Below are positions 3,853 to 44,255 of a DNA stretch of 64,000 nt, one piece after another. A model generated the notes under the pieces. The model was not told where the DNA came from and did not search any database. It saw nothing but the letters and a program-made list of their open reading frames with translations. This DNA is from a marine gamma proteobacterium HTCC2148 (lineage in GTDB: Bacteria > Pseudomonadota > Gammaproteobacteria > Pseudomonadales > Halieaceae), in NCBI GenBank assembly GCA_000156295.1, contig DS999227.1:32171-96170 (forward strand). Direction: 5' to 3'. Positions within the stretch are counted from its first letter, which is position 1; every line of letters starts with the position of its first letter. A program made the translations under genes and the position numbers.

Positions 3853-6510
3853 TCAGAACCGATAACGGAAGCGCGCGCCGAACGTTCTGGGATTAGGTAA
3901 TACCAGGTTGGCACCAAAGGGAGGCACCTGACCCAGGGGCATGAACCCAAAGTTCACATTACCAAGCCCACTGCGCACCTTGTCCTCGTCAGTAAAATTG
4001 TTCACGTAAGCAACGAGTGACCACTTTTCACCGTCCAGCCCTGCGGAAAAATCTGCGATCAGCACGGAGTCGAGATAAGTCAGGTTACCTGCATCGAGGT
4101 ACCTTTTGGATTGGTAGTTACCAAACAATTCAGTGAAGTAACCCCAACCATTGTTAAACTGACCGTCATAGCGAATGGAGGCCACTGCCACGTCTTCAGG
4201 TGTATTGGGGAAGGATGTGCCACTGAAATCACCCTCCGCGTTGCCCGATTGAACTTTGTCATAAGTGCCCGGGTCGCCCACATCACTGATATTGAAATCG
4301 AGGTATTCGGTCTCAACATGGGTGTAGCCCAAAAAGAAGGTCCAGTTCGCTGACGGTCGATAGGTAGCCTCGACCTCAGCGCCGTAAACTTCACTTTCAC
4401 CAGCGTTGGTAATCGACACCTTATTGATGCCCAGCTCATTTCTGACAAAGTAAGGAACTTGTTGGTTGGTATAGTCGTTATAGAAAATGGCACCATTCAG
4501 TCGCAGCCGGTTTCCCATCAAATCAGTCTTACCGCCTAATTCATAGGCCCAAAGCTCTTCCGGCTCGTAATGGCCGGTAGTAATGTCGCCATTGCCGTCG
4601 GTAGTGGCAATGCCACCCGGCTTAAAACCTTTACCTGCTGACACATATGCAAAGATGTCATCGGTCGCCTGCCAGTCGGCGCTGAACCTCGGCACGAACG
4701 CGGTTTCTTTAATAGTGTCTTTCTGCATTTCAGGATCAACTACTTCAAGATCGTCATTGAAATACGGCATATTTAACAGGCCGTTAACATAGGTATCCCT
4801 TGGTAATCCCTCATAATCGATCGTCTCTTCAAGGTAGCGACCTTCGGCAGTGAGTCGCCATGCATCGCCGAGGTTGTAAACCATGGACCCTGCCACTGAC
4901 CAGTGCTCAGTGTCTCGGTTAATTGGCGTTCGGTTGGGCAACATTTCTGTTTGAACGCCGGTAAAAAGCTCGCAGGTAGTGACGTCACCCGGCACTGTGC
5001 AAGTGGGATCCGCGATGAGAGACAATTTTGAGTTGTAGTAGTCCGTATCGATATAGCTGGAGACCCACCACATTTGGTTCATCACGGAATCCATGTCCTC
5101 TGCCCAATAGAGCACGTCACCCATCCACTCAATATCGCCTACGGCCCCCTGGAAACGAAATTCCTGAGAAATCTGGTCGTAGTCAAAAGATGTATCGGAG
5201 TTGGTTTCTACACCGAACTGTGTAAGCACAGCTCCCGCTGGACCAATGTATGTGGGATCGAGGGCTGCCGAGCCCGGGAAAAATCCGTCGAGGGTGTAAT
5301 TTGTCTTATCAAAGTCCTCTTCGACACTGGTTTCGTTTTTTGTATAGCCAGTCAAAGACTGCAGCTGTATTTCACCTATTTGCCAGTCCAGTTCCAGAGA
5401 CAAGCGCGTGTTTTCGATTTTGGTGCCGACAAAATCTTTGCCGGTAGAGGGATCTGGCGAGAGATCAAGGTCATCCTCGCCGAAATCGCTGATATCACCT
5501 GTGAGCATAGTGGCACACGCCGGAGTAAATCCGGCCAAGTGCCGCCAGGCAGCATTGTCATCACACTCCGCCTGAGTGGCTTCGGGGAGGCCCCGATCGC
5601 CTCCAGGTATTGGCACTTTCATGCTGTTGTCTGTCACGCTGCCCAACAAGAAAAAGTCGCTGGGTGCACTACCCAGCGGCCTCACCGAGGCTGCCATCAC
5701 AACTGGCCTGGGTGTCGATTCATCCTTTATGTACTCACCCCGAAAATAAGCAGAAAAATCACTTTCACCCTCAAAATTCAGGGCAATACTACCCCCGGTT
5801 TGCTCGTTAGCCCCCAAATCGCCGCCCGTTACCGGGTTTTCATAATGACCGTCAAAGTCAGAAGTGAGACCGGCGACATTCATCGCCAGTTGATCACTCA
5901 ACGGGAAAGAAACTGCGCCTAAGCCGCGCCAGTAACCGTGTTCATCGACCTCTCCTTCCACATAGCCAACTACGCCTTCGTCCGCTACAGGCCTCTTGGT
6001 CACATAGTTTACCGCCCCGGCAAAAGCCGACCGTCCATAAGTCACGCTCTGGGGCCCTTTGATAATCTCGATACGCTGTAGCTCTAGCAACCCCATGTTT
6101 GCATAAGCACCACCGCCCGCCACAGTCAGGGTTTCCGAGGAAATATCTACGCCATCGACCAGGATCGCCACGTTGGGTCGACCACGAGTAATATTCATGC
6201 CGCGTATCGTTGGCCTTGTATCGTTCGGCAGTACGCCAGTCTCAAAGGTCAGGCTGGATGAATACTTAGCGACATCCGCTAAACTGCTAATGGCCTTCTC
6301 TTGCAATTCAGCAGCTCCGATGGCGTCAATCGCTACAGGAACTGACTGCAGGTTTTCGACTTTTTTACGAGCAGTGACCAGTACTTCCTCTAGCTGAAAA
6401 TTTTCACCTCGTAATGACTCTACCTCGCGCTGTTTACTTTCCTGCGCTTGAGTCAGGTTGGCGACAGCGAGCGCAGCAATTACCAGCGCCAGGTTATGTT
6501 TCTTAAACAT
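3853..6510 (-). CDS. TonB-dependent outer-membrane receptor
   Basis: This 885-residue protein has a signal peptide (MFKKHNLALVIAALAVANLTQAQ). A plug domain follows with the TonB-box-like LEEVLVTARKKVENLQSVPVAI and the ADVAKYSSSLTFETG stretch. A long beta-barrel ends in FGARFRYRF with the terminal Phe needed for outer-membrane insertion. Such receptors import siderophores, haem or other bulky ligands using TonB energy. It is the last gene of the long minus-strand run of catabolic genes, which suggests that it brings in the substrate of that pathway, perhaps a tetrapyrrole. That is inference from position only; no haem-receptor FRAP/NPNL box was seen. Confidence 0.9.
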   Translation of the reverse strand: MFKKHNLALVIAALAVANLTQAQESKQREVESLRGENFQLEEVLVTARKKVENLQSVPVAIDAIGAAELQEKAISSLADVAKYSSSLTFETGVLPNDTRPTIRGMNITRGRPNVAILVDGVDISSETLTVAGGGAYANMGLLELQRIEIIKGPQSVTYGRSAFAGAVNYVTKRPVADEGVVGYVEGEVDEHGYWRGLGAVSFPLSDQLAMNVAGLTSDFDGHYENPVTGGDLGANEQTGGSIALNFEGESDFSAYFRGEYIKDESTPRPVVMAASVRPLGSAPSDFFLLGSVTDNSMKVPIPGGDRGLPEATQAECDDNAAWRHLAGFTPACATMLTGDISDFGEDDLDLSPDPSTGKDFVGTKIENTRLSLELDWQIGEIQLQSLTGYTKNETSVEEDFDKTNYTLDGFFPGSAALDPTYIGPAGAVLTQFGVETNSDTSFDYDQISQEFRFQGAVGDIEWMGDVLYWAEDMDSVMNQMWWVSSYIDTDYYNSKLSLIADPTCTVPGDVTTCELFTGVQTEMLPNRTPINRDTEHWSVAGSMVYNLGDAWRLTAEGRYLEETIDYEGLPRDTYVNGLLNMPYFNDDLEVVDPEMQKDTIKETAFVPRFSADWQATDDIFAYVSAGKGFKPGGIATTDGNGDITTGHYEPEELWAYELGGKTDLMGNRLRLNGAIFYNDYTNQQVPYFVRNELGINKVSITNAGESEVYGAEVEATYRPSANWTFFLGYTHVETEYLDFNISDVGDPGTYDKVQSGNAEGDFSGTSFPNTPEDVAVASIRYDGQFNNGWGYFTELFGNYQSKRYLDAGNLTYLDSVLIADFSAGLDGEKWSLVAYVNNFTDEDKVRSGLGNVNFGFMPLGQVPPFGANLVLPNPRTFGARFRYRF

Positions 6511-6573
6511 TTGTCACTCCGGTATTATTCATATTTTTATACTCTCAAGACTACCATCGCTGGAAGTTTTCGT

Positions 6574-7350
6574 CTAAAACTCTTCCAACAATCGTCCCTT
6601 GCCAATTACTTTGTCTGCCACACCACAGGCGCGCAGTGCATGCCATGCAGTTGCCACGTTAATAGGAATTAAAGGCTTCTCGAGCACGTGCTCCAGCGTT
6701 GGAAAAAGATCTACAGTGGATAGATTGGTTCCGGCCTGAACGATCACATCGACGTCGTCACCATCCACTTCGTGGACAGCGGAAATCACATCCTGGATAT
6801 CGGTTTCTGCGATAGCGGTTGCCGAGGGCCTGTTCAAGCCTTTCACCTGTTTTACTGTGTATCCCAACTCCTCGAAATATTGGCGCACGTTCGCATCACC
6901 GACAGGTGGGTAAGGCGTGATCACCGACAGCGACTTGGCGCCAAAGCATTCCAGAGCGTCGCGGGTGGCCTGGGCACCAGTAGTGAGACCCAAATCGCCA
7001 ATGTGCTCGCGAATGCCTGCTTCGAACTGCACACTTCCCTCCACGCCTCCCCAGAAGGTTTCCGCGGACATCCCCAGCATAATGTGACTGACCTTGGCGG
7101 AAATTACGTTGCGCAGGGAGATCGGAATTTCTCCCCGCATTATGTCCAAAAAGCGCTCAAACACAGTATCTGTATCATCGCCCGTGCTCTCGACCTCATC
7201 CGCCCAATTGCGCAGCTCGATCCAAAATCGAGAGGGATGCCATGTGACTCCGTCCAGATTCAGTTTTTGCAGGTCGTACTCGACTCCGGTATTCGTAGAG
7301 GGAATGATCACCCCTATCTGGGCTCGCCTGGCAATCTGATAGTTATCCAT
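6574..7350 (-). CDS. maleate isomerase/arylmalonate decarboxylase-like protein, copy 2
   Basis: This 258-residue protein has the Asp/Glu racemase-superfamily pattern of maleate isomerases and arylmalonate decarboxylases. It starts with QIGVIIPSTNTGVEYD, then has HIMLGMSAETFWGG, SVITPYPPVGDANVRQYFEELGY and VIVQAGTNLSTVD. Family members use one or two cysteines in the two half-sites. Here the first half-site reads GMSAE and the second reads AGTNL, so neither has the usual Cys. The cysteines present (residues 135 and 242) lie elsewhere. A close paralogue lies at 8610-9443. The start has AGGGA upstream. With the amidase genes nearby, it probably acts on a substituted maleate, malonate or similar diacid; the reaction is not known. 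Confidence 0.8.
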   Translation of the reverse strand: MDNYQIARRAQIGVIIPSTNTGVEYDLQKLNLDGVTWHPSRFWIELRNWADEVESTGDDTDTVFERFLDIMRGEIPISLRNVISAKVSHIMLGMSAETFWGGVEGSVQFEAGIREHIGDLGLTTGAQATRDALECFGAKSLSVITPYPPVGDANVRQYFEELGYTVKQVKGLNRPSATAIAETDIQDVISAVHEVDGDDVDVIVQAGTNLSTVDLFPTLEHVLEKPLIPINVATAWHALRACGVADKVIGKGRLLEEF

Positions 7351-7361
7351 TACACAATTCC

Positions 7362-7841: not shown

Positions 7842-7892
7842 AACCGCCAGTAATCAAAGCTATTTTTATAACCCGACTAGAGCCGCCGGTTG

Positions 7893-7906: not shown

Positions 7907-7929
7907 GTTTCAAACCAAAGTGCTGTGGT

Positions 7930-8613
7930 CTAGGGAAACTTAACCATTCCGCGTACCATAGCCTCCAGGTATTGCGGACTCACCAGATGGCAATAGTAAT
8001 TACCTAAGAAGCGCTCAGGCATTGGAACCCACCACGCATGGGGTGCGTACAAGGCCCTGGTATGCAACCGATACAGGCCACCTTGGTCTCGACTGACAGG
8101 GTTGAAAGGCCAGGGCTTCAACCACCTGGGGCCAATGAATCGCATGTCTTCAGGCTCCACTATCCAGTCTGCAGTATCCAGCGCACGCTCGGGCACAGGA
8201 ACCGACGCGACAGTTCCAGCTAACACCAGGCGGTGAACCTCGTCACAGCTGAATTCAGCTTCTGCAACCGGTACAGCGCCCGCCTCGTTATCGTGGGCGG
8301 CATTGATGCGTTCAGCCGTTCGCAACTTACAGGAAACAACCGTATTAATAGCCATTGTAGAATGCAGGGGAGCGCTATCGTATCGGTGAATAACAAAAGG
8401 TTGATCCGTAGGCTTTGACGCTACAAAAGCCTCGTAATTAGTGTGGCGCATCACTTCGGGCTCAAGCTCAGTGCCGGCTATAATCTTCTGCGCCTGCGAA
8501 CAGTAATCGCCTGCTCCCGGTGTATAGTCGCTGGCCCAGGCCCAGGTAGGACTCAATAACAGCAGTGCGCAGGCCCTATAAAAGCTGGCTGAAACTTGCA
8601 TAATCGGCTTCAA
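7930..8613 (-). CDS. exported protein of unknown function with four cysteines
   Basis: The 227-residue protein has a signal peptide (hydrophobic stretch ACALLLLSPTWAWAS, probable cleavage after WAS). The mature part has four cysteines (in DYCSQ, VSCKL, FSCDE, YYCHL) that could form two disulfides in the periplasm. I recognise no family. The start overlaps the stop of the upstream isomerase-like gene as ATGA, so translation is probably coupled and the protein should belong to the same pathway. It may be a periplasmic binding or processing factor acting after the TonB receptor; this is a guess from location. Confidence 0.6.
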   Translation of the reverse strand: MKPIMQVSASFYRACALLLLSPTWAWASDYTPGAGDYCSQAQKIIAGTELEPEVMRHTNYEAFVASKPTDQPFVIHRYDSAPLHSTMAINTVVSCKLRTAERINAAHDNEAGAVPVAEAEFSCDEVHRLVLAGTVASVPVPERALDTADWIVEPEDMRFIGPRWLKPWPFNPVSRDQGGLYRLHTRALYAPHAWWVPMPERFLGNYYCHLVSPQYLEAMVRGMVKFP

Positions 8614-9443
8614 TGCTCCTCGAACAAACGCCCCAAATGATCATATTGATCCCGCACCCCGCAACTGCGCAATGCGTGCCAGGCGGTTGCAACGTTAATA
8701 GGCAGCACCGGTTTTTCAAGCCATTTTTCAATCACCGGGAATGAGGTGGCAGTCGAGAGATTAGTGCCTACCTGAATAATGGCGTCGATGTCATCGGCGT
8801 CAACCTGTCGCACCATATCCATGACCTGATGATCAGGGACCAAAGCAATAGCGTCGTGCGCATTCTCGCAACGCAGGCCAAGCACCTGCTTCACGTTGTA
8901 ACCGGAATCCTCAAAAAACAAGTGAACATTTTTGTCACCGATCGGCTGATAAGGTGTGATCACGGCGATATTTTTACCCACGTTGCCCGGCACATCCAAC
9001 GCTTCAAGAGCCGCAATGACCGCGTTGGCACCCGTTGTCAGACCAACGTCACCCACCGCTTCCTGAATTTTTTCCACAAAGCCATCGTTTCCCTCTATGC
9101 CACCCCAGAACGTTTCTGCTGACATACCCATCATCACGTGATCAGGCTTACAGGTCATCAGGCTTTCGATCGAAGCGCCTATGGTTTGGCGTAACATTTC
9201 CAAAAAGCGAATAAAATTATCATCGTCGCTCAGGTCGGCATGCTCGATCATAAAGCGACTGAAGTGCCAACTGACACCGCGGGGAATAAGCCGCTGGCAA
9301 TCATACTCAACCGAGGTATTGGTCGACGGAATGATCACGCCTATCTTGGCACGATGACCAATATAATTGTCGAGGTGGCCGTCGGTTCGCTGATCCCGAT
9401 CGCGGGTTCTGGATAAATCTATAGTCGCGTGAGTCAGACTCAT
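8610..9443 (-). CDS. maleate isomerase/arylmalonate decarboxylase-like protein, copy 1
   Basis: This 277-residue paralogue of the 6574-7350 protein contains KIGVIIPSTNTSVEYD, HVMMGMSAETFWGG, AVITPYQPIGDKNVHLFFEDSGY and IQVGTNLSTATSFPVIEKW. It has about 25 extra N-terminal residues. As in copy 2, the two half-site positions that usually carry catalytic cysteines read Met-Ser and Gly-Thr. The start at 9443 has AAGGAG six bases upstream. It sits just downstream of the FAD monooxygenase, amidase and hydrolase genes. That order recalls the nicotinate NicC/NicF/NicD/NicE set, where the last member is maleate isomerase. The analogy supports action on a diacid, but the missing cysteines argue for a different mechanism or substrate. 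Confidence 0.8.
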   Translation of the reverse strand: MSLTHATIDLSRTRDRDQRTDGHLDNYIGHRAKIGVIIPSTNTSVEYDCQRLIPRGVSWHFSRFMIEHADLSDDDNFIRFLEMLRQTIGASIESLMTCKPDHVMMGMSAETFWGGIEGNDGFVEKIQEAVGDVGLTTGANAVIAALEALDVPGNVGKNIAVITPYQPIGDKNVHLFFEDSGYNVKQVLGLRCENAHDAIALVPDHQVMDMVRQVDADDIDAIIQVGTNLSTATSFPVIEKWLEKPVLPINVATAWHALRSCGVRDQYDHLGRLFEEH

Positions 9444-9467: not shown

Positions 9468-10684
9468 TCAGGCAACTTGCAGGCTATCGCGAACACAGTT
9501 GATCATTGCGCGCTCAAGTAGAAAGGCCTTTGCCTTAACAGGATCAGCGGCTGAATCCATTAGCATTGTTTGCCGCGATTGCTGCGTTTCCTCGTCCGTC
9601 GCTTCCATAAGTTTTTTGTTAGCAATGGTATGGTCTTGGACAAACTTCACTGCAAGATCTCGCCGCTGGCGGTTGTAGCGTTCAAATAGTGGCTGGTATG
9701 GCGCACCGTCACGAACAATATGCACAAGTTTTTCTCCCAGGTTATTGGCATCGTGCAGCCCACCATTCATTCCCATGCCGCCCAGTGGATTATTGATATG
9801 ACAGGCGTCTCCAACCAACAACACCCTGCCCTTGAAATAAGTCTCAGCGACTCTTTGATTAACGTTATATAGCGTGCGGTGCCCAATATCATAGGCGCCC
9901 TCTTTGTCCAGAGATGATGCAGACGCTGTTGAATAAATTCGTCCGACAACAAGTAAGCTTCGTCTTCGACATTCTCTGGCCGTGTGGGAAACAGCACCCG
10001 CCATATTTTTTCGGTGCGCAAAATGACGCACCATTCGTCCGGGTCCGACACGTAGTTCACCCAGGAAAGGTCATCAAACACTTCTTCAAAAGGAAATTGG
10101 GTACTCACCACGAGGAATTTTTCGTCATAGGTAAACCCCAGGTAGTCAATCCCTGCGGCTTTGCGAATCTGGCTGCGGGCGCCTTCAGCAGTGACCAAAA
10201 AAGATGCCGGGAGCTGTTCCTCTCCTGTCGCTGTATCCAATTGAACGATGACCTGGCCTGCAGTTTCAGTGAAGCCCTTGGCTTCTACATTAAAACGCAG
10301 GTCTGCACAGTCGATACCCTCAAGCACAGCGGCCACCAGCCGCGTGAACTCGTACTGTTCGAGTTGCAAGCGAAACGGATAGCGTGTGCTATCGGCCAAT
10401 AAATCCATTTCAAAGTTGGCCACCTCACCACTGCGGCGATCACGATACTGATAGCGGTCAGCGATCAGGCCTTTGTGTAACATTTCATCAATAATCCCAA
10501 AGCCAAGATCGGCAATCATTTCTAGGCTGGGCGGATGAAAAGTAGATGCGCGCAGGTCGACCGGCAGTTCTGGCTCTTTTTCTAACAGAACCACAGACAC
10601 ATCTCTGCTCGCCAGGTATAGCGCCAACAGACAGCCGGCCGGGCCAGCGCCTGCAATAACGATGGGAGCTTGCGAATTACTCAC
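9468..10684 (-). pseudogene. FAD-dependent monooxygenase with a frameshift
   Basis: Two frames together make one aromatic-hydroxylase-type flavoprotein. The N-terminal frame (from GTG 10684) has the FAD motif IVIAGAGPAGCLLALYLASR and runs in family register to about FIQQRLHHL. The C-terminal frame carries DKEGAYDIGH and the second FAD motif GRVLLVGDACHINNPLGGMGMNGG. The register changes near 9910-9914, where one base appears to be missing on the coding strand. Such enzymes hydroxylate or cleave phenolic and heterocyclic rings with NAD(P)H and oxygen. Flanking genes in the run are intact, so this could be a recent mutation or a sequencing error. Resequencing this short region would settle it. 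Confidence 0.8.
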
Positions 10685-10687
10685 GGG

Positions 10688-11284
10688 TCAACTCACCCCT
10701 TCGAGCGCAGTTAAAACATCCGCCAGATTCCAAACATCTGCGTATTTTGCGTGCATGTCAAAAAGGTTCGCCTCGTGCGCGTCACTATTGCGATCACCTA
10801 CCGCCTCTCGTGGAACCACCACCCGGTAGTCGTACTGCAATCCGTCGACCACGGTGGCTCGCACGCATCCACTTGTTGTAAGTCCGGTAACCACCAGAGA
10901 GTCGACCCCCTTTGCCCTTAACATGCTATCGATATCAGTTGCTCTGAAAGCGCTTGCCCAGTGTTTCTCAATCACCGGCTCGCCAGGCTCAGGGCTCAAG
11001 CGCTGATCCACTTTCACCCAGCGGGAGTCAGCAGTCAGTACGTTCAATGCTGGCACACGATCCCGAAAAACACGCGCCTGGCTCTCGTTGTGGTAGACCA
11101 CAGAAGTAAAAAACACCGGGCGCTGCTGCCGCCGAAATGTCTCCAACAACATTTTATTGGCAGCCACCACCTCGGGGCAGGCGCACCCGAGAGGGCAGTC
11201 AGGGTTGGTAAAACCCTCGATCATATCCACTAGCAAGAGTGCTGGACTTTTGCCCAAGCCAAGAGACTCCCTGTTAAGATCCAT
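10688..11284 (-). CDS. isochorismatase-family amidohydrolase (maleamate amidase-like)
   Basis: The 198-residue protein has the full catalytic triad of the cysteine hydrolases of this family: Asp in LLVDMIEGF, Lys in VIEKHWASAF and Cys in LTTSGCVRATVVD. Members hydrolyse N-carbamoylsarcosine, nicotinamide, isochorismate or maleamate. The spacing and the GCVRATVVD box fit the N-carbamoylsarcosine/maleamate amidase branch. It is followed after three bases by the FAD monooxygenase frame and preceded by an alpha/beta hydrolase, as in nicotinate-type pathways. A second family member lies at 31625-32290. I infer that it releases ammonia from an acid amide formed by ring opening of an imide. Confidence 0.85.
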   Translation of the reverse strand: MDLNRESLGLGKSPALLLVDMIEGFTNPDCPLGCACPEVVAANKMLLETFRRQQRPVFFTSVVYHNESQARVFRDRVPALNVLTADSRWVKVDQRLSPEPGEPVIEKHWASAFRATDIDSMLRAKGVDSLVVTGLTTSGCVRATVVDGLQYDYRVVVPREAVGDRNSDAHEANLFDMHAKYADVWNLADVLTALEGVS

Positions 11285-15592: not shown

Positions 15593-15670
15593 TATTTTCT
15601 CCATTGAGGGGGCACTGGAAACAGTAACTAATATTGCCGTTCAGTCTGAACCGGGCAGCGTTATGCAGCC

Positions 15671-17394: not shown

Positions 17395-17454
17395 CCTCTG
17401 ATATCCTTTTATGCCTATTAAACGCCAGCTTAATGGGGCCCGACACCGTCCCGA

Positions 17455-17468
17455 ATGACATTTGTCAA
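17455..17468. promoter_or_regulatory. Crp/Fnr-type box ATGAC-ATTT-GTCAA
   Basis: Nine of ten positions match TTGAY-N4-RTCAA. The box is centred in the divergent region between the nitrilase gene (start 17394) and the membrane-protein gene (start 17545), 61 and 77 bases away, so it could serve both directions. It is nearly identical to the box at 7893. Confidence 0.6.
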
Positions 17469-17544
17469 AAGCACCGGAGGCGCCAGGGCTATAATCCATT
17501 GACGAGAATAAAAGGGCCGCCCAAGGCCTGCAACCGGAATCCGG

Positions 17545-18207: not shown

Positions 18208-18258
18208 TCCAAGCCAATACACAGGGCGTAGCAACAACAAAACCAGTTGGACAATAAT

Positions 18259-33228: not shown

Positions 33229-33230
33229 AT

Positions 33231-36002: not shown

Positions 36003-37187
36003 ATGGCAGAAGCAGCCAGACCTCTCGCCGGCCTTAAAGTCGCAGAATTCACCCATATGGTCATGGGACCTACCGCCGGACTGCTGCTCGCTGACCTGGG
36101 AGCGGACGTTATCAAGATAGAACCGCTGGCAGGAGACAATACCCGCCGACTAAAAGGCTCTGGCGGCGGATATTTCGCGATGTACAATCGCAATAAGTCT
36201 AGCGTCTGCCTGGACTTGAAATCCCCCCAAGGCATCAACCTGGCAAAAGACATCGTCACCAGCAGTGACATCCTGATAGAAAATTTTCGCCCTGGTGCGA
36301 TGGATAAGCTGGGACTGGGATACGCAACGCTGAGCGAATCAAACCCTGGCCTGATCTACCTTTCACTGAAGGGTTTTTTATCTGGGCCCTATGAGCATCG
36401 CACCGCCCTAGATGAAGTCGCACAAATGATGGGGGGGCTCGCTTATATGACAGGACTGCCAGACCGGCCAATGCGTGCTGGAAGCTCAGTGATTGATATT
36501 AGCGGCGGAATGTTTGGCGTCATAGGTGTGCTCTCCGCGTTGCAAGAACGTCATAGCACCGGCAAGGGAAAACATGTCACCAGTTCATTGTTCGAAACGA
36601 CAGCATTTATGGTTGGGCAGCACATTGCACAGCAGGGAGTGCTGGGCGAAGAACCCCCGCCGATGTCGGTGCGGCGCAGCGCCTGGTCAATCTACGATAT
36701 TTTTACTGCCGGGGACGGCGCTCGAATTTTCGTGGGCGTAGTCAGCGATTCGCTGTGGCAGCGCTTCTGTGCAGAATTTCATTTTATAGAATGGGCTGCC
36801 GACCCCCAGCTAAAAAGCAATAACCAAAGAGTGCTTCACAGAGACAGCTTGATACCGACTATTCAGGCCCTGTTCGATACCCTGAATAAAGACCAGTTGA
36901 TGCAACGACTGGATAATGCCGGGGTTCCTTTCGCTCCCATCAATAAGCCCATAGACCTGACTGACGACCCGCACATGAATGCAGGTGGCCTGCTAAGTAT
37001 CACATTGAGCAATGGTGAAAAAATCAAACTGCCAGCCTTGCCGATAGAGTTCGATGGGGAGAAGCCCGACCTACAACGAGACCTGCCAGCACCCGGTGCC
37101 GGTGCCAGGGAGTACCTTGAAAAACTTGGCCTGCAAAAAGACCAGATAACGCAACTAATAGCCGACGGCGTGATGATCGCCGATTGA
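36003..37187 (+). CDS. family III CoA-transferase (CaiB/BaiF)
   Basis: The 394-residue protein has the family III pattern: PLAGLKVAEFTHMVMGPTAGLLLADLGADVIKIEP, the NKSSVCLDLKS block, ENFRPGAMDKLGLGY and the nucleophilic Asp in AGSSVIDISGGMFG. These enzymes move CoA between carboxylic acids through an aspartyl-CoA intermediate. Substrates in this branch include mesaconate, citramalate, itaconate and succinate. Placed opposite an HMG-CoA-lyase-type gene, it would activate the diacid that the lyase then splits. The start has AAGGAATCTGATCACC upstream. Confidence 0.9.
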   Translation: MAEAARPLAGLKVAEFTHMVMGPTAGLLLADLGADVIKIEPLAGDNTRRLKGSGGGYFAMYNRNKSSVCLDLKSPQGINLAKDIVTSSDILIENFRPGAMDKLGLGYATLSESNPGLIYLSLKGFLSGPYEHRTALDEVAQMMGGLAYMTGLPDRPMRAGSSVIDISGGMFGVIGVLSALQERHSTGKGKHVTSSLFETTAFMVGQHIAQQGVLGEEPPPMSVRRSAWSIYDIFTAGDGARIFVGVVSDSLWQRFCAEFHFIEWAADPQLKSNNQRVLHRDSLIPTIQALFDTLNKDQLMQRLDNAGVPFAPINKPIDLTDDPHMNAGGLLSITLSNGEKIKLPALPIEFDGEKPDLQRDLPAPGAGAREYLEKLGLQKDQITQLIADGVMIAD

Positions 37188-37188: not shown

Positions 37189-37809
37189 TCAATGCTGATA
37201 AAGCCAGGGGCGCAAACTCTGCCGGTGCCGGTGAAAACGATCAATGGTTTGCCATCGCGTCTGAGTCAGGGAAATTGCATCCAGACCTTCCACCAACATG
37301 CGTTTTGCCCAGGGTTCGATTTCAAAATTGAATGCCTCACCGGACGCCTGCAGCTGTTGCTCGGGAAGATCGACTAAAACTTTATTTTGACATGGGTCCT
37401 GCGCAACCCAAGCAGCAATTTCAGCAATAATATTTGCCCCCAACACCAACGGAAGCAGACCATTTCTAATGCAATTGTTGGCGAAAATTGTCCCAAAACT
37501 TGGCGCTACTACAACCCGTATACCGTACTCCGCCAGGGCCCAAACCGCATGTTCACGCGAAGAACCACAACCGAAATTTGGGCCAGACAGAATAATGCTC
37601 GCATCGCGATAGGCATCCTGGTTAAGAACAAACTCGGGAGCGGCATCGCGGCCACCAGCTTGTAGATAGCGCCAGCCGGCAAAAAGCCCCTCCCCCAGCC
37701 CCTGCTTGGAAACCCGTTTCATCTCACGGGAGGGAATTATGGCATCGGTATCCACATTCGACCTTATCAGCGGCGCCGCTACTCCCAGGTGCTGTATAAA
37801 CTTATCCAT
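37189..37809 (-). CDS. LeuD-type hydratase small subunit
   Basis: The 206-residue protein matches the swivelling small subunit of isopropylmalate isomerase: DAIIPSREMKRVSKQGLGEGLFAGWRY and GPNFGCGSSREHAVWALAEYGI. It pairs with the LeuC-type gene three bases upstream. In most bacteria leuCD sits with leuA or leuB; here it sits among CoA-transferases and lyases, so a catabolic hydratase such as dimethylmaleate or citraconate hydratase is more likely than leucine synthesis. The C-terminus (WQTIDRFHRHRQSLRPWLYQH) extends a little past the usual end. Confidence 0.85.
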   Translation of the reverse strand: MDKFIQHLGVAAPLIRSNVDTDAIIPSREMKRVSKQGLGEGLFAGWRYLQAGGRDAAPEFVLNQDAYRDASIILSGPNFGCGSSREHAVWALAEYGIRVVVAPSFGTIFANNCIRNGLLPLVLGANIIAEIAAWVAQDPCQNKVLVDLPEQQLQASGEAFNFEIEPWAKRMLVEGLDAISLTQTRWQTIDRFHRHRQSLRPWLYQH

Positions 37810-37812: not shown

Positions 37813-39210
37813 CTACAGCATCTCCCGCGGGTCGGTAATAACACCGGTTACGGCAGATGCGGCTACTGTCGCCGGGCTGGCCAGGTGCGTACGAGTCTGC
37901 GGCCCCTGCCGGGACTCAAAGTTACGGTTGGTAGTACTCACGACTCGCTGCTGAAAATCAAAATGTTCGCCGCCTGCGAAGAAACACATAGAGCAACCGG
38001 AGGCGCGCCACTCAAAGCCAGCGTCAATAAAAATCCGATCCAAGCCCTCTGTTTCAGCCTGTGCTTTTACTTGCATAGAGCCCGGCACACAGATCGCTCG
38101 CATGCCAGGTCTGATCTTATTCCCTCGTAGGATGCTCGCTGCCAAACGCAGGTCACTTATCCGGGCATTTGTGCAAGAACCGATGAAGACACAATCAATG
38201 GGCTGCCCAGCAATAGGCTGACCCGCAGTCAGGCCCATATATTCCAATGCCTTGTCGTACCCTGAGGCCTGCGCCTCATGCCCGAAGGCGGTAGCAATCA
38301 ATCCATTAATGGGTATTGCATGCTCCGGGCTGGTACCCCAGGTCACCTGCGGCTCAATATCGGTGCAATCAATGACAATCTCGCGATCAAAAGTAGCATC
38401 CTTATCAGTCGATAATTGCTGCCAGTATTGAACCGCGTCATCCCACAGTGTACCTACGGGCGCATAAGGTTTTCCCCGTAGATAGTCGATGGTCTGATGG
38501 TCCGGTGCTATCAGCCCGGTGAAGGCAGAGAATTCCACCGCCATATTGCACAAGGTCATTCTGCCCTCCATGCACAGATCAGCTACCGCAGATCCCGAAA
38601 ACTCAAGCACGTAACCACTGCCACCACTGGCACCGAACCGGGCTATCAGATGAAGAATCATGTCCTTGGCGCTGACACCAGCTGCCAACACTCCCTCAAA
38701 AGACACCCGCATACTCTTCGGCTTACTAACCCGCAGGGTCTTGGTTACCAGGGCATGCTCTGCCTCACTGGAGCCAATGCCCCAGGCAAGTGCGCCAAAA
38801 GCTCCCTGCGTGCAAGTGTGACTGTCTGGACACACCAATGTGATACCCGGCTGGACAATGCCCTGTTCCGGGGACACGACGTGGACGATACCCTGGCGTG
38901 GATCGTCCAGGTCAAAAAGAGTGAGTCCCGCTTCGTGCGCTCCTTCACGAGTGGCAACAATAAAGTCGCGGCCACTGGGCATAGTGGTCTCGTCACTGCG
39001 ATCCGGATAGGTATCGACAATATGATCCATGCAACAGAACACCTGCTCGGGACAGAATATTTCCCGGCCATCAGCTCGCAGACTGGACAAAGCAATAGAC
39101 CCTGTGCGCTCGTGAAGAAACACGCGATCGATATAAATCAGGTCGGTTCCGTCACTTTGCTTCTCTACCAGGTGTTCTTGCCAGAGCTTTTCAAAAAGAG
39201 TTTGCGCCAT
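37813..39210 (-). CDS. LeuC-type [4Fe-4S] hydratase large subunit
   Basis: The 465-residue aconitase-family protein has the three cluster cysteines in GSCTNAR and GCSMC, the VCPDSHTCTQGAFGALAWGIGSSEAEHAL block and VRVSFEG-type strands. It forms a heterodimer with the LeuD-type subunit and adds or removes water across a branched unsaturated diacid. An operator-like palindrome lies 54 bases before the start. Eubacterium barkeri 2,3-dimethylmaleate hydratase is built from the same two subunits and is followed by an isocitrate-lyase-family lyase, which this window also has (25856-26725). The exact substrate remains inferred. Confidence 0.87.
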   Translation of the reverse strand: MAQTLFEKLWQEHLVEKQSDGTDLIYIDRVFLHERTGSIALSSLRADGREIFCPEQVFCCMDHIVDTYPDRSDETTMPSGRDFIVATREGAHEAGLTLFDLDDPRQGIVHVVSPEQGIVQPGITLVCPDSHTCTQGAFGALAWGIGSSEAEHALVTKTLRVSKPKSMRVSFEGVLAAGVSAKDMILHLIARFGASGGSGYVLEFSGSAVADLCMEGRMTLCNMAVEFSAFTGLIAPDHQTIDYLRGKPYAPVGTLWDDAVQYWQQLSTDKDATFDREIVIDCTDIEPQVTWGTSPEHAIPINGLIATAFGHEAQASGYDKALEYMGLTAGQPIAGQPIDCVFIGSCTNARISDLRLAASILRGNKIRPGMRAICVPGSMQVKAQAETEGLDRIFIDAGFEWRASGCSMCFFAGGEHFDFQQRVVSTTNRNFESRQGPQTRTHLASPATVAASAVTGVITDPREML

Positions 39211-39288: not shown

Positions 39289-40257
39289 TTATTTGACCGC
39301 GTGTTTTAGCCGCTCTCGAATTTTTTTCATCGGCAAATGTGCCTCTGCCTCCTCAAGAATGAAGTCCAAAAAGCTGCGAGCTACCTGCGACAACTGTTTC
39401 TGGCGCAAGTGAATAACATTCCATTGGGTCATGATGGGAAAACCACTTACACGCAGCTGTACCAGTTCATCTGCCTGCTCATTGACCAGCGCATAGGCCG
39501 ACAGTATGCCTACGCCCATATCCGCCATGATAGACAGCCTGATCGCCTCGCTACTGGCCAGCGCAAGAGAGCGAGGAATGCTCTGTCCGCTGTCACTCAG
39601 GTATTCATCAAGCGCCAGGCGCGACCCAGAGCCCGGCTCACGAATAATGAGTAGCTCCGCCGCCAAGTCCTGCCACTGCAATTTTCGACGTCTTGCCAAC
39701 GCGTGATCCGAACGCGCCGCAACAACCAGAGGATTAGGCAAAAACGGGTGATGAATAATATCCATGTCTTGAGGCACATGATTGAAGATATAAAGATCGT
39801 CACGATTCTCGTTCAACCGTTCAATCAGATCGCTGCGCTTGCCCTCGGTAAATTCAAGCTCTACTCCCGGATAACGCCGCAAGAAAGGCGCCAGTAGCTG
39901 GGGCAGGAAATACTTGGCACTGCTGTCCACTGCCAGGCGAAGACGCCCTGCTTTCAAGCCCTTCAGATCGTTGATATCTCCATCGAGCCGCTGGAGCGTA
40001 TCCGCCACCTCTCTGCCGGCCGCAACAACCCGGTGACCCGCATCGGTCAGCTGGAGTCGTCGTCCGATAATTTCATACAGAGGGATACCGACCGCTTCGG
40101 CCAATTTACGCACCTGAATAGAGACGCTCGGTTGTGCCAGGTGCAATTGCTCTGCCGCCTGGGCAATACCACCTACCTCTGCAACCTTCATGAAAATTTC
40201 CAGTTGCCTCAGCGTTCCCAAACGGACTGATGCTTGAATTCCATCCCTGTCTGGCAT
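39289..40257 (-). CDS. LysR-family transcription regulator
   Basis: The 322-residue protein has the LysR helix-turn-helix (LRQLEIFMKVAEVGGIAQAAEQLHLAQPSVSIQVRKL) and the periplasmic-binding-type effector domain, in the CbbR/CysB-like branch (LKGLKAGRLRLAVDSSAKYFLPQLL). It is divergent from the cupin gene across an AT-rich stretch of about 140 bases and probably controls that gene or the LeuCD genes downstream of it. It would sense a small carboxylate. Confidence 0.9.
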   Translation of the reverse strand: MPDRDGIQASVRLGTLRQLEIFMKVAEVGGIAQAAEQLHLAQPSVSIQVRKLAEAVGIPLYEIIGRRLQLTDAGHRVVAAGREVADTLQRLDGDINDLKGLKAGRLRLAVDSSAKYFLPQLLAPFLRRYPGVELEFTEGKRSDLIERLNENRDDLYIFNHVPQDMDIIHHPFLPNPLVVAARSDHALARRRKLQWQDLAAELLIIREPGSGSRLALDEYLSDSGQSIPRSLALASSEAIRLSIMADMGVGILSAYALVNEQADELVQLRVSGFPIMTQWNVIHLRQKQLSQVARSFLDFILEEAEAHLPMKKIRERLKHAVK

Positions 40258-40400
40258 GAAAATTTACCTTTATTTATATATAGCTATTAGTCTATGTATA
40301 TATATTATATTTTCAATTTTTACTTATAGTTTATTTTCTCTACTCTGAGCACTCCTGACCACCACGAACAACCAAAAACTCACTGTTGAGGATAGTAATA

Positions 40401-41300
40401 ATGCGAGCACATGTTGAGCTGGTCGACGAAAGAGACTTGATCTGGCATCCGGCCGAGTTTTCTCATTGCAGCGGCGATGCTCGGCAACAAAACCTGAGCT
40501 ATGACGAAGAGGATGGCTCCGCCTCCCTGCGTATTGAGTTCACCTCAGACTGGAGCCGCCCCGCTGGCCTGCATAGCGCTTTCACCGAGTGGTACGTTCT
40601 ACAGGGCGAGATGAACCTGGGCGATACGAAGCTGGTGGCCAATGACTACTGGGCAGCTCCAAAGGGAATTCTCACTCCCGAAATCACGGTAAAAGCAGGC
40701 ACCATCATTCTGTTATTCCGTGAGTATGGAGATTGGTCGTTTAGCCCTGCAACTGAAAATGGTCCTCAAGCAAGAGACTTCGATGAACTGACGATATGCC
40801 GCGCTGATGCCCAGGATTGGTTTGATGTAACAGACCCGGAGCATGGCAGCCCCATGGACTTTGAACGCGGCGGTACGCCGGTGCCGGGGTTGTTCATCAA
40901 AATGCTTTACCACGATGTCGAGACCGGGTTTTACACTCGGCTAATCAAAGCCAAACCAGGCTGGAGAGAACACCCACTCGCCCATCACCCCTGCTTTGAG
41001 GAAGCTTACTGTCTGGATGGTACTTTCGACTATAACTTTGGTGAGATGGTCAAAGGCCAATATTTTTTTCGCCCAAAAGGCATCCGTCACGGAGACTTCA
41101 CCGCCGGGGAAAATGGCACTGTATGGATTTTGCGCTGTGACGGACAGCTGGTCGACTGGTATACAGATAACGCCAGCGTAGAGATGAAAGGGGATCCCGT
41201 AAACTGGGGTGAGGGCTACCCGGAAACAGAGCCGCCCGAATTTGTCCTACCCGTCAGATCAACTTCAGTGGGGCCGATGAAGCGGCCAGACTATATGTGA
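40401..41300 (+). CDS. ChrR-like double-cupin protein (DUF4437-like)
   Basis: The protein (299 residues from ATG 40401, GAGG upstream) has two related cupin halves. The first contains FTEWYVLQGEMNLGDTKLVANDYWAAPKGI and the second contains EEAYCLDGTFDYNFGEMVKGQYFFRPKGIRHGDF. In the second half, His and Glu residues typical of metal binding remain (HHPCFEEAYC, RHGDF); the first half looks poorer in ligands. Such proteins act as metal-dependent oxygenases, isomerases or sensors. It is divergent from a LysR gene. Its place in the pathway is unknown. Confidence 0.7.
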   Translation: MRAHVELVDERDLIWHPAEFSHCSGDARQQNLSYDEEDGSASLRIEFTSDWSRPAGLHSAFTEWYVLQGEMNLGDTKLVANDYWAAPKGILTPEITVKAGTIILLFREYGDWSFSPATENGPQARDFDELTICRADAQDWFDVTDPEHGSPMDFERGGTPVPGLFIKMLYHDVETGFYTRLIKAKPGWREHPLAHHPCFEEAYCLDGTFDYNFGEMVKGQYFFRPKGIRHGDFTAGENGTVWILRCDGQLVDWYTDNASVEMKGDPVNWGEGYPETEPPEFVLPVRSTSVGPMKRPDYM

Positions 41301-41475: not shown

Positions 41476-42690
41476 TTATTCTGGCTGTGCAGTAATAACC
41501 CCCGCTTCCAGCAACTGGGCCAGATCCTCGTCACCCAACTGCAGGATCCCTTTCAAAACTTCATCATTGTGGCTGCCAATCTCGCCGCCGGGCCAGTCGG
41601 TGCGGCCAGGCGTCGACGACATCTTCGGCAGGATAGCGGGGATTTTCAATGGTTCACCGTTAATTTCAACGCTCTCGAACATGCCACGAGCATTGTAGTG
41701 CTCGTCCTCCACCATATCTTCCACGCTGTAAATAGGCCCGACGGGAACTCTCACCTCTTCCAACGCCCCAATCACGTGGGCCGATGAATGTACTGCACAC
41801 CAATCAGACAACGCCTTGTCGATTTCCTCCTGATGTATAACGCGACCGGCGTTATCCGCCATTTGCGGGTTTTCGGCCATGTCTGAGCGACCCGCCACAA
41901 CCATCAGGCGCTTGAATATTGAGTCTCCATTGCCACCAATCACCACGTGCTTGCCGTCATCGCAGAGGTAGGTGTTGGTAGGCACGATGCCAGTTACTGT
42001 GGTTCCGGAGGGCCCGCGAATCGCAGCGCCGCCGTCGTATTCGGGCACAATGCCTTCCATCAGGTTGAAGATAGATTCGTATAAAGCCACATCAATAACC
42101 TGCCCTTCCCCTCCGGGTTTACTGCGCTGAATAATCGCCAGGGCAATACCCAGGGCAGCGTGAATAGCCGACAGCGTATCCCCCATACTGATGTTAGTGC
42201 GAATCGGTGGTTTACCGGGTTCACCGTTAATGTAGCGAAAGCCTCCAAACCCTTCAGTTACCGAGGCATATCCGGGCTTGCTTGCGTAGGGGCCATCCTG
42301 GCCATAGCCCGAAATACGCGCATAAATCAGCCCGGGCTTTTCGGCCCGCATTTCGTCGGGCCCAATACCCCACGTCTCGATCAGGCCCGGGCGAAAATTC
42401 TCCACCACGACATCAGCCGTCTTAATGAGCTCTTTGGCGAGCTGTTGCCCGCGCTCAGACTTAAGATCCAGGCTAACGCTTTTTTTGTTGCGCCCCAGGC
42501 TGCGCCACCAAAAAGAGGTGCCACTCTCATCCAGCAAGCGCCAACCTCGAATGGGGTCGCCGGTGGGTGGCTCGACCTTAATCACTTCTGCACCAAAATA
42601 AGACAGAATTGTGCCGGTGAAAGGCCCCGCCAATAGCTGCCCCATTTCTATGACCCTTATTCCCTCTAACGGTCTCTGTCCGTCCGACAT
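41476..42690 (-). CDS. family III CoA-transferase (citramalate/mesaconate type)
   Basis: This second CaiB/BaiF protein, about 404 residues, has PLEGIRVIEMGQLLAGPFTGTILSYFGAEVIKVEPP, LGRNKKSVSLDLKS, ENFRPGLIETWGIGP, YGQDGPYASKPGY and the nucleophilic Asp in NISMGDTLSAIHA. The start at 42690 has GGAG six bases upstream and is preferred over 42705. It resembles succinyl-CoA:citramalate and mesaconyl-CoA C1-C4 transferases. It is divergent from the sodium symporter gene, and the two may be a transport-activation pair for one diacid. Confidence 0.88.
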   Translation of the reverse strand: MSDGQRPLEGIRVIEMGQLLAGPFTGTILSYFGAEVIKVEPPTGDPIRGWRLLDESGTSFWWRSLGRNKKSVSLDLKSERGQQLAKELIKTADVVVENFRPGLIETWGIGPDEMRAEKPGLIYARISGYGQDGPYASKPGYASVTEGFGGFRYINGEPGKPPIRTNISMGDTLSAIHAALGIALAIIQRSKPGGEGQVIDVALYESIFNLMEGIVPEYDGGAAIRGPSGTTVTGIVPTNTYLCDDGKHVVIGGNGDSIFKRLMVVAGRSDMAENPQMADNAGRVIHQEEIDKALSDWCAVHSSAHVIGALEEVRVPVGPIYSVEDMVEDEHYNARGMFESVEINGEPLKIPAILPKMSSTPGRTDWPGGEIGSHNDEVLKGILQLGDEDLAQLLEAGVITAQPE

Positions 42691-42848
42691 ATTCTTCTCC
42701 ATCAATAACTGAAATCAGCGACAGCCTGGCCTGGGCGCATCTTTGACCAATGCATTGGCTACCTCCCCGCCGCCTGTGATATGTATACAGCATGACATGA
42801 GGTGCCAGCCAGCCCTTTGAGAAACATCAATCCCATGAAGGAGTCACC

Positions 42849-44255
42849 TTGCTCGATACCCGTGTAGTGCTTACTACCCTGATCGTTTACAAAGTTGTAT
42901 TAATCCTGATCGGTTTCTGGGCACAGCGCAGGGTCAACAGCGAACAGGATTTTTTCCTCGCCGGCAGGCAACTAGGGCCCTGGGTTGCGGCGATCAGTTA
43001 CGCGGCGAGTGCCGCCTCCGCCTGGACCCTATTGGGGATGAGCGGCCTTGCCTACAGCATCGGCTTTTCGGCGCTATGGGTGGCACTGGGGGCTGTCCTG
43101 GGTTGCGCTGCGTCCTGGTTTGTACTTGCTCCCCGAATAATGCGTGAGGGCGAACAACAAAGCCTCCTGTCCGCTACAGAATTAATCGCCGGGAACACCC
43201 AGGGCACCGAGCGTAACCGCTTAATAGCGCTCGTATCACTGATTATTCTGTTTTGTTTTGTGGTTTACATAGCCTCCCAGTTCCAGGGTGCAGGGAACAC
43301 CTTCGCCTCCACTTTTAACCTCGATGCCAGCCAAAGCATTCTGCTGGGCGGCTCCATCATTTTGATCTATACCTTGCTCGGGGGGTTCTGGGCAGTAAGT
43401 ATCACCGACACCTTGCAGGGGATGCTGATGATTTTCACTGCCATCCTGCTACCCGCAGCTGCAGTGCTCCATCTGGGCGGCCCCGCGCAGTTCTACCAAG
43501 CTCTGCTGGCAACAGACAGCAGCAATTTTGCAGCTCCTCTGGGCGGCAATGTTGGCCTTATTGCCGCGGGAACAATAGCAGGCTCCCTGTCCGTTGGCCT
43601 GTCGTCCCTGGGCCAACCTCATCTGGTGGCGAGGTTTCTTGCCTTGCGGGACGAGCGCGCCTTGAAGCAAGGACAGCTGATCGCCACCGCCTGGTATACC
43701 GTGGTGTTTTTTGGCATGTGTGTAGTAGGGTTTGCCGGTAAAGTCCTGCTTCCGGAGCTGGAGAATAGTGAGCAAGTGTTCTTCGCACTCAATAGCGCCC
43801 TCTTTCCTTCCGTGGTCGCCGCCGTCTTGCTGGCGGCCGTGCTGTCAGCAATCATGTCAACTGCGGACAGCATGTTACTGGTGACAGGAACAACCGTAGC
43901 CCACGACCTGGGGCTTACCCGACACTACCCGCAGCATGCGCTATTGGCATCTCGACTGACCATTGCAGTCATATCCTTATTGGCAATGGCGGTAGCCATT
44001 TACCTACCGTCGACCATTTTCCAGCGAGTTCTGTTTGCCTGGGTCGCCATAGGCTCCGCGCTGGGCCCAGCGATTGTTTGTCACGCCCTCGGTGCCAGCA
44101 TCCCTGCCGGCAGGCTATTGCCTGCAGTGGGCTGCGGCTTCCTCGCGGCAGTGGTCTGCTACTTGCTGCCCAACACCCCTGGCGACATCCTCGAGCGCAC
44201 CGGTCCCTTTATGCTCGGGCTCGCTATATTATTGCTTGGACGCCCCAGGGGCTAA
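42849..44255 (+). CDS. sodium:solute symporter (SSS family)
   Basis: The 468-residue protein has about 13 membrane helices and the SSS hallmarks: DFFLAGRQLGPWVAAISYAASAASAWTLLGMSGLAY near the N-terminus and SVGLSSLGQPHLVARFLALRDE in the middle. SSS carriers use the sodium gradient to import proline, acetate, pantothenate or other small solutes. The start is TTG 42849 with AAGGAG five bases upstream. A bidirectional terminator follows. Uptake of a carboxylate for the neighbouring CoA-transferases is plausible. Confidence 0.88.
   Translation: MLDTRVVLTTLIVYKVVLILIGFWAQRRVNSEQDFFLAGRQLGPWVAAISYAASAASAWTLLGMSGLAYSIGFSALWVALGAVLGCAASWFVLAPRIMREGEQQSLLSATELIAGNTQGTERNRLIALVSLIILFCFVVYIASQFQGAGNTFASTFNLDASQSILLGGSIILIYTLLGGFWAVSITDTLQGMLMIFTAILLPAAAVLHLGGPAQFYQALLATDSSNFAAPLGGNVGLIAAGTIAGSLSVGLSSLGQPHLVARFLALRDERALKQGQLIATAWYTVVFFGMCVVGFAGKVLLPELENSEQVFFALNSALFPSVVAAVLLAAVLSAIMSTADSMLLVTGTTVAHDLGLTRHYPQHALLASRLTIAVISLLAMAVAIYLPSTIFQRVLFAWVAIGSALGPAIVCHALGASIPAGRLLPAVGCGFLAAVVCYLLPNTPGDILERTGPFMLGLAILLLGRPRG

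Follow-up and report, generated by a model that had tools for sequence, protein, structure and literature searches.

The window analysed here is a stretch of 64,000 nucleotides from the marine gamma proteobacterium HTCC2148 (C26:32171-96170 of a 4.33-Mb genome in 31 contigs). Between positions 3853 and 44255 it carries a gene cluster that probably encodes the catabolism of chlorophyll-type pigments acquired from the surroundings. The cluster encodes a homologue of plant RCCR, a relative of the plant chlorophyll b reductase NOL, a second protein of the RCCR/FDBR fold, a Rieske oxygenase and several hydrolases, together with putative genes for imide and acid catabolism. A chlorophyll-type pigment is the likely substrate, and degradation down to central metabolites in this lineage is plausible. 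We infer the substrate and every reaction proposed below from the protein families, from the fold and homology of the two RCCR/FDBR-type proteins, from the place of the SDR beside plant NOL in a tree and from near-perfect co-occurrence of the RCCR, NOL-like SDR and FDBR-like genes. In total, 40 open reading frames of the region were scanned against Pfam and 20 against NCBIfam.

The RCCR-like protein (21192..22013, plus strand) is the only match to PF06405 in this genome, scoring 58 bits against a cut-off of 24.9; with the bilin reductase family it scores 16.5 bits, below the cut-off. A PDB search with the single sequence returned Arabidopsis RCCR only (E 6e-9), a profile of the RCCR-like proteins found Arabidopsis RCCR at E 3e-17, and the AlphaFold model (predicted local distance difference test score, pLDDT, of 86) has RCCR 2zxk as its first PDB match (E 3e-13). 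A first-pass annotation, made from the sequence without database searches, had recognised an RCCR homologue here, and both the family and the best fold match bear this out. The active-site acids of the plant enzyme are Glu154 and Asp291, which we take to be chain residues E111 and D248 (an offset of 43). Asp238 stands at the position equivalent to Asp291 and is invariant in 23 aligned sequences. The protein is 92% identical to one named Halioglobus sp., and near carriers are named Halieaceae, which marks the host as a gammaproteobacterium of Halioglobus type.

The NOL/NYC1-like SDR (19585..20379, minus strand) and grape NOL share 36% identity across 273 columns, the C-terminal part included, in an alignment covering NOL residues 78-345. 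In a tree of 40 rows, a 98/95 branch has the five plant NOLs on one side, along with 17 SDRs of clusters in three phyla and two SDRs of a second locus, and on the other 16 SDRs of the same bacterial family, these being the top grape NOL matches outside the upper score class described below; several of these other rows are long-branched, and the plant rows are NOLs only. The protein had been labelled NYC1/NOL-like at first pass, and the grouping agrees with that label. By this relationship it would be a chlorophyll b 7-formyl reductase.

RCCR is rare and patchy in its distribution. Of 140 family genomes, 10 have it, including 3 of 8 within the genus, as do 4 of the 369 genomes of a class-wide sample, this genome among the four. 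The grape NOL query divided the SDRs of the family genomes into two separate score classes, an upper one of 118-141 bits and all others at or below 81; class-wide, the search was limited to E 1e-26. A NOL-class SDR is present in all 10 RCCR-positive and none of the 130 RCCR-negative family genomes (Fisher 1.7e-15, a value that, like those that follow, treats related genomes as independent), and class-wide in 4/4 against 0/365 (Fisher 1.3e-9). The FDBR-like gene is full length in all 10 RCCR-positive family genomes, with one partial match in the 130 others (Fisher 1.9e-14). The profile used for it (A2) was built with rows from the window and from L024, L029 and L031, loci on contigs of G397, G415 and G502, and matches in these genomes are therefore not independent; it also picks up RCCR genes, at E 1e-9 to 1e-6. 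Because related genomes are not independent, the better argument is the patchiness within the genus together with the matches in unrelated families (f134 and f183). Co-occurrence of RCCR, SDR and FDBR-like genes in other genomes, which the first-pass annotation had proposed as a check, is thus strong. The partial FDBR-like match is of half length (G378, C4:519411-519794) and is perhaps the relic of a lost cluster. Two of the carriers have strain names, Pseudohalioglobus sediminis NY5 and Parahaliea maris HSLHS9, which makes the hypothesis directly testable.

Both samples together give a NOL-class SDR in 13 of 13 RCCR-positive and 0 of 495 RCCR-negative genomes. This pairing with a plant chlorophyll b reductase family argues against an alternative in which the cluster would degrade bilins or haem-derived tetrapyrroles (biliverdin, bilirubin, phycobilins), the two proteins of shared fold would be bilin reductases and the Rieske oxygenase would be a later hydroxylase. 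Haem oxygenase PF01126, the only family of this kind searched for, also speaks against it, being absent from this genome and present in only 7 of 31 genomes (this one and 30 behind RCCR loci). The samples derived from loci (the SGR, PaO, haem oxygenase and 30-genome Imid1 sets) and those derived from taxonomy (the family sets for RCCR, NOL, FDBR-like, Imid1 and Photo_RC) may share genomes, as with L024 and G397. Reaction-centre genes (Photo_RC) are found in 0/10 RCCR-positive family genomes against 53/130 RCCR-negative ones (p 0.013). Turnover of the cell's own bacteriochlorophyll is thereby rejected for the family, and the pigment is probably taken up from outside.

Beyond the family, RCCR was located at 147 places in GTDB genomes; the best 80 were taken together with flanks of up to 10 kb, and 40 window proteins were compared with these loci by tblastn. 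RCCR is present in all 80 by construction, because they were found with RCCR patterns, and some matches of large families (aldehyde dehydrogenase, SDR, CN-hydrolase, CoA-transferase) are remote. Clustering by longest open reading frames, which is subject to antisense artefacts in GC-rich genomes, only helped to choose the relatives' proteins for the family scan. A block of RCCR, hydrolase 2, Rieske, FDBR-like, a 322-aa orphan and SDR genes recurs in Pseudomonadota, Actinomycetota, Chloroflexota and Myxococcota. At least four of the five core partners accompany RCCR in 27 of 29 loci of Actinomycetota, 11 of 19 of Pseudomonadota, 3 of 6 of Chloroflexota and the single one of Myxococcota; none of the 24 cyanobacterial loci and not the one unplaced locus have as many. 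The order RCCR-hydrolase 2-Rieske-FDBR-like-orphan-SDR is identical in 14 loci, and 13 share a variant with the hydrolase moved.

Among the 80 loci the commonest partner is the 322-aa orphan (52), followed by Rieske (51), CN-hydrolase and hydrolase 2 (47 each), SDR (44), aldehyde dehydrogenase (44, many of them remote at 28-35%) and FDBR-like matches (41). Then come acyl-CoA-dehydrogenase-like and Amdase matches (20 each), the FAD monooxygenase (16), a 206-aa orphan (16, 14 of these in Pseudomonadota), the ICL-type lyase (15), CoA-transferase (14), HMGL (12), MFS (11), a Crp/FNR regulator (9), a DUF4437 cupin (8, at 61-62% identity in the Nocardia ones), LeuC (4) and the imidase-like protein (3). 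RCCR, FDBR-like, Rieske, hydrolase 2 and the 322-aa orphan have no match at E 1e-10 in 12 comparison stretches, which are not random: L104 and L106 lie on the contig of the window, and ten are from related genomes, nine around imidase-like genes and one adjoining. The gene set is real, conserved and specific. In Paraferrimonas, a fusion of rubredoxin and rubredoxin reductase directly follows RCCR (L030:10896-12533) and is a candidate electron supply for the Rieske oxygenase or the reductases. The cyanobacterial RCCR homologues (24, within L046-L100) are mostly of Nostoc type and lie near CN-hydrolase (10) or aldehyde dehydrogenase (18) matches.

The FDBR-like protein (14840..15604, minus strand) belongs to no Pfam family and reaches the cut-off of neither PF05996 nor PF06405. 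NCBIfam has no family at E<=1e-5 for it, for the RCCR-like protein or for two of the hydrolases. Its 22-row profile aligns with the RCCR profile over 224 columns (hhalign, E 1.7e-11), and its AlphaFold model (pLDDT 95) has RCCR 2zxk as top PDB match (E 1.5e-10), followed in order by PebA, PebB, HY2 and PcyA, in line with its FDBR-like label at first pass. Aspartate is invariant at both acid positions, Asp96 (PHFTLD) and Asp222 (VDPVW), as numbered within window:14843-15589. Asp96 is aligned with the plant RCCR Glu. Asp222 lines up both with Asp238 in the RCCR-like proteins and with the HY2 aspartate in the EKDP motif; in a direct alignment with plant RCCR it falls two residues further on than the plant Asp. 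Two proteins of the RCCR/FDBR fold are thus combined in the cluster, and the FDBR-like one has both acids.

The bilin alternative draws on these proteins, since RCCR and FDBR share one fold and the best PDB sequence match of the FDBR-like profile is phytochromobilin synthase. A Rieske oxygenase without the PaO domain, an imide module that would suit haem fragments equally and the occurrence of RCCR homologues in cyanobacteria too are also in keeping with it. Set against the NOL-class SDR and the scarcity of PF01126, we regard degradation of bilins as unlikely and chlorophyll-type pigments as the better reading.

The Rieske oxygenase of the window (29707..30873, minus strand) combines PF00355 with VanA_C PF19112, and its nearest PDB entries are NdmA, SxtDIOX and SxtT. 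Three further Rieske proteins tested from the cluster and its neighbourhood are all VanA_C. Membership of the PaO family is rejected, PF19112 standing in place of PF08417; of the PaO-like Rieske proposed at first pass, the Rieske oxygenase holds but the likeness to PaO does not. From its place in the block, this VanA-type enzyme is a candidate ring opener. A relic of a second Rieske oxygenase, 35 N-terminal residues long (22085..22189, minus strand), is 69% identical to L027:10847-12004 (tblastn E 6e-10), and three relatives (L025-L027) have a full-length Rieske gene at this place between RCCR and hydrolase 2. The relic, also noted at first pass, is real, though its shortness prevents it from being typed; L027, the nearest of the full-length relatives used, is VanA_C.

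Chlorophyllase- or pheophytinase-like hydrolases had likewise been claimed. The chlorophyllase-family hydrolase (27606..28685, plus strand) scores 32.6 bits with PF07224 (cut-off 26) and has a 56% identical copy in G395. It is joined by alpha/beta hydrolases 1 (11288..12100, minus strand, PF00561), 2 (22338..23321, plus strand, the hydrolase of the conserved block, Abhydrolase_6 at 22 bits and below cut-off) and 3 (26729..27682, plus strand, PF00561 at 86 bits). The 322-aa orphan (23417..24385, plus strand) has an internal duplication, its halves aligning with each other in hhalign at E 3e-6 (prob 88). The 206-aa orphan (20469..21089, plus strand) adjoins RCCR. Neither matches Pfam at E<=5, and their calycin-like label finds no support among sequence families. 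A relationship of the 206-aa orphan to either half of the 322-aa one found no support (hhalign E 0.06 and 0.11).

The imide module (31.6-39.2 kb) begins with isochorismatase-type amidase 2 (31625..32290, plus strand, PF00857 at 101 bits), followed by imidase-like protein 1 (Imid1; 32287..33228, plus strand, PF01522, of the PuuE/polysaccharide deacetylase family) and its paralogue, imidase-like protein 2 (33132..34160, plus strand, PF01522). The latter overlaps Imid1 as called, and several of its relatives match only from residue 25-34. Imid1 matches PuuE 3cl6 at E 8e-24 and is below the NCBIfam cut-off; cyclic-imide hydrolysis is predicted from its family. Then follow a GntR/UTRA regulator (34164..34946, plus strand, PF00392/PF07702), an HMG-CoA-lyase-family (HMGL-type) lyase (34949..35872, minus strand, PF00682 at 137 bits, and PRK05692 at 268 bits with a cut-off of 246; the open reading frame was called to 36271 and the family match starts at residue 134), family III CoA-transferase 1 (36003..37187, plus strand, PF02515 at 365 bits), and a LeuCD-type hydratase. 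Both subunits of the hydratase are present, LeuD (37189..37809, minus strand, PF00694 at 117 bits, LeuD model at 213 bits and above cut-off) and LeuC (37813..39210, minus strand, PF00330 at 514 bits, PRK12466 at 692 bits with a cut-off of 531), with the Fe-S cysteine motifs SCTN and CSMC kept.

The first-pass annotation had read the whole as one pathway. The RCCR/NOL/oxygenase/FDBR-like set does recur, but the imide module is not a constant part of it: it forms a unit of its own that associates with the RCCR block. Its gene order is preserved both in RCCR-negative G381 (L131), where it stands alone, and in RCCR-positive G397 (L024, L141). Amidase 2 directly adjoins the imidase-like pair in 8/8 comparison stretches with an Imid1 at least 70% identical, and also in L024, L026 and L027. 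It is possible, then, that two adjacent units serve different substrates, one tetrapyrroles and the other cyclic imides in general. Imid1 of at least 400 bits occurs in 21 of 130 RCCR-negative family genomes, and its distance to RCCR is 920 kb in G395; in G487 and G502 the two are on different contigs. Of 30 other RCCR genomes, the seven with Imid1 at 79-84% identity are all Gammaproteobacteria by title; another six have only weaker matches, and the 17 without a match at E 1e-20 all fall, by title, outside Gammaproteobacteria. On the other side, Imid1 is present in 9 of 10 RCCR-positive family genomes (Fisher 2.8e-6), at most 11 kb from RCCR in five of them (G000, G397, G401, G494 and G496) and 49 kb away in G415, and HMGL, LeuC, LeuD and CoA-transferase genes are found behind the RCCR block in Anaerolineae L047 and ahead of RCCR in L054. 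Separate substrates are rather unlikely in our view and are partly compatible with the pigment pathway, as they deny only the shared end route.

Further catabolic genes lie on either side of the block. The families claimed at first pass for the amidases, the CN-hydrolase, the hydratase, the C-C lyases and the CoA-transferases, like those of the imidase-family pair, are all present. Isochorismatase-type amidase 1 (10688..11284, minus strand) scores 123 bits with PF00857, and the 600-aa CN-hydrolase of the amidase/nitrilase superfamily (15697..17499, minus strand) 136 bits with PF00795, in two stretches. The aldehyde dehydrogenase (12097..13536, minus strand, PF00171 at 485 bits) is next to an acyl-CoA-dehydrogenase-fold flavoprotein (13550..14821, minus strand, PF02771/PF02770/PF08028). 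The ICL/PEP-mutase-superfamily C-C lyase (25856..26725, plus strand, PF13714 at 146 bits) has a KRCGH motif and scores 279 bits with the prpB model, below the cut-off of 354; its PDB matches include 2,3-dimethylmalate lyase 3fa3 (E 4e-46, rank 12/18). A second family III CoA-transferase is at 41476..42705 (minus strand, PF02515 at 384 bits). Amdase A (6574..7350, minus strand, PF17645 at 49 bits) and its paralogue Amdase B (8610..9443, minus strand, PF17645 at 52 bits, nearest PDB entries maleate isomerase 2xed/2xec) have the Asp/Glu-racemase fold and are relatives of maleate isomerase and arylmalonate decarboxylase. The cysteine before GTN, lost in both copies, is kept in 17 of 19 relatives from other loci.

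In addition to the relatedness of the compared genomes and the uneven presence of Imid1, several observations weigh against a chlorophyll pathway. Alanine (Ala115) stands at the position equivalent to Glu154 in the RCCR-like protein and is invariant in the same 23 sequences; because it replaces a plant active-site acid, the reaction of this RCCR family member may differ from that of plant RCCR. The PaO domain (PF08417) was not found in this genome, and in the 31 genomes searched it occurs above cut-off in 5 and at E 0.001 in 9. SGR (PF12638) was found in 0 of 50 RCCR genomes, in a search in which no control genome matched and whose sample did not include this genome. Pfam chlorophyllase has no match in the 80 RCCR loci at E<=1e-6, and none of the 24 cyanobacterial RCCR loci has more than 1 of the 5 core partners. 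The FAD_binding_3 monooxygenase (9468..10684, minus strand, PF01494 in two open reading frames) is broken across two frames, which may be a real break or a sequencing error. In G395 it is a single open frame of 403 aa (L108:6913-8124), whose residues 2-266 match one frame of the window and residues 258-403 a second. Finally, the positions of both catalytic cysteines hold M and A/V in the Amdase A/B pair (M and A in Amdase A). A maleate isomerase function is unlikely with these cysteines gone, so that the pair are family relatives of maleate isomerase, as claimed, but not evident isomerases. For the placements that the first-pass annotation had treated as decisive, RCCR is in PF06405, the SDR is with NOL and the genes co-occur, but the Rieske oxygenase is outside the PaO family.

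A pathway can be proposed from these families. The TonB-dependent receptor (3853..6510, minus strand), in which PF00593 and PF07715 were found as expected from the first-pass annotation, is a candidate for outer-membrane pigment uptake. The phytyl tail would be split off by the hydrolases, chlorophyll b-type formyl groups would be the task of the NOL-like reductase, and ring opening, done in plants by PaO, would here fall to the VanA-type Rieske oxygenase. The linear product would be reduced by the RCCR-like and FDBR-like proteins and then broken up into its separate rings by the flavoproteins, the aldehyde dehydrogenase and the CN-hydrolase. In HTCC2148 the imidase-like pair of the adjoining module would open the substituted maleimides and the isochorismatase-type amidase would then take off ammonia. 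LeuCD would hydrate the disubstituted maleate to a substituted citramalate, which the CoA-transferase would activate; the HMGL-type lyase would split the CoA ester, and the ICL-type lyase would provide a route for the free acid. Ethylmethylmaleimide, for example, would yield pyruvate and butyryl-CoA, and haematinic acid pyruvate and glutaryl-CoA. This end-route chemistry (hydration, CoA activation and C-C cleavage) is proposed because the families are present. Methyl ethyl, methyl vinyl and methyl maleimide and haematinic acid are among the oxidative products of chlorophyll, according to PMC7318184, and the maleimides were not detectable in leaves by its authors.

The same genes could be thought to detoxify photosensitising chlorophyll derivatives, the ring being opened, reduced and exported rather than eaten. 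Plant mutants of these steps suffer from phototoxic catabolites, as stated in PMC8219035, and the cluster includes an MFS transporter (18247..19578, plus strand, PF07690 at 164 bits) and a glutathione S-transferase-like protein (25130..25774, minus strand, PF13409). This is very unlikely given the many catabolic genes (CN-hydrolase, flavoproteins, aldehyde dehydrogenase, lyases and CoA-transferases) and the TonB receptor in the cluster, several of the catabolic genes also recurring near RCCR in other phyla.

The TonB gene has a 79% identical copy at the same position in G397, where the genes from TonB to LeuC are together as in the window. It lies outside the wider conserved block, because the 80 RCCR loci have only two matches to it, both remote (25-27%). 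The remaining genes are a Crp/FNR-type regulator (24450..25133, plus strand, PF13545/PF00027), a LysR regulator (39289..40257, minus strand, PF03466/PF00126), the DUF4437 cupin (40386..41300, plus strand, PF14499 at 126 bits) and a sodium:solute symporter (SSF; 42849..44255, plus strand, PF00474 at 203 bits). SSF genes are also close to the imide module in L132, L133 and L135.

Upstream of the window (L105) there is a second set of aldehyde dehydrogenase, CN-hydrolase, NOL-like SDR and MFS genes. The paralogous CN-hydrolase / NOL-like SDR / (RCCR2) / MFS set is at L105:9339-13301 and L108:929-3850. In G395 a second RCCR homologue (RCCR2, 43 bits) lies between the second SDR and the MFS gene, and there is none at that place in this genome; pairs of second SDR and RCCR2 are also found in G415, G494 and G496. 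The second NOL-like SDR has in its vicinity a gene with DUF169 and PCP_red (L105:7183-8223; C26:21182-22222), some 10 kb upstream of the window, which scores 41 bits with PCP_red, the protochlorophyllide reductase 57 kD subunit (cut-off 32.5).

A search of the open-access literature, judged by titles and the openings of abstracts, found no bacterial cluster of this kind and no bacterial pathway that dismantles chlorophyll. The amount of chlorophyll made and destroyed each year is put at 10^12 kg in PMC7318184. The cluster is likely to represent a new way for bacteria to eat chlorophyll. If so, the genes of bacterial chlorophyll breakdown can be named, and the combination of RCCR and a NOL-class SDR, where the genome lacks a reaction centre, becomes a marker for pigment eaters in metagenomes. 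It would also suggest a route by which pigment carbon and nitrogen return to food webs, and the origin of plant RCCR and NOL would again become a question. More tentatively, bacteria of at least four phyla may eat chlorophyll through a pathway of RCCR and NOL homologues with a VanA-type Rieske oxygenase for PaO, those of the Gammaproteobacteria taking the maleimides to pyruvate and acyl-CoA. Plant RCCR and NOL would then be relatives of a bacterial food pathway, and perhaps borrowed from it.

Cyclic-imide catabolism uses an imidase and a half-amidase, and nicotinate fermentation has dimethylmaleate and dimethylmalate steps. The cluster resembles these routes in its imidase-family pair, isochorismatase-type amidase, LeuCD-type hydratase and ICL-type lyase. 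It differs in adding an HMGL lyase and a CoA-transferase, and in being linked to RCCR in most, though not all, genomes of the family. With the FDBRs (PcyA, PebA, PebB, HY2 and the pre-PcyA of heterotrophs) the fold is shared, and the FDBR-like protein of the cluster has both acids. However, it has no Fe_bilin_red match, the RCCR-like protein is below the cut-off of that family, and the gene neighbourhood is different, in a genome without PF01126. In PMC10151467, heterotroph bilin reductases are treated and RCCRs are used as an outgroup.

The SGR Mg-dechelatase homologue of Anaerolineae is likewise a member of a plant chlorophyll-breakdown family in non-photosynthetic bacteria, as described in PMC8531759, whereas SGR itself was not found in the 50 RCCR genomes, in a search in which no control genome matched. 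The same difference, with the same limit, applies to the plant PaO/phyllobilin pathway (NYC1/NOL, HCAR, SGR, PPH, PaO, RCCR), with which the cluster has RCCR, a NOL-like SDR, a Rieske oxygenase and alpha/beta hydrolases in common. The Rieske oxygenase is of VanA type rather than PaO. Compared with the plant pathway, the cluster adds a second protein of the RCCR/FDBR fold, the 322-aa orphan and a catabolic tail, and it is a bacterial gene cluster in a host without a reaction centre.

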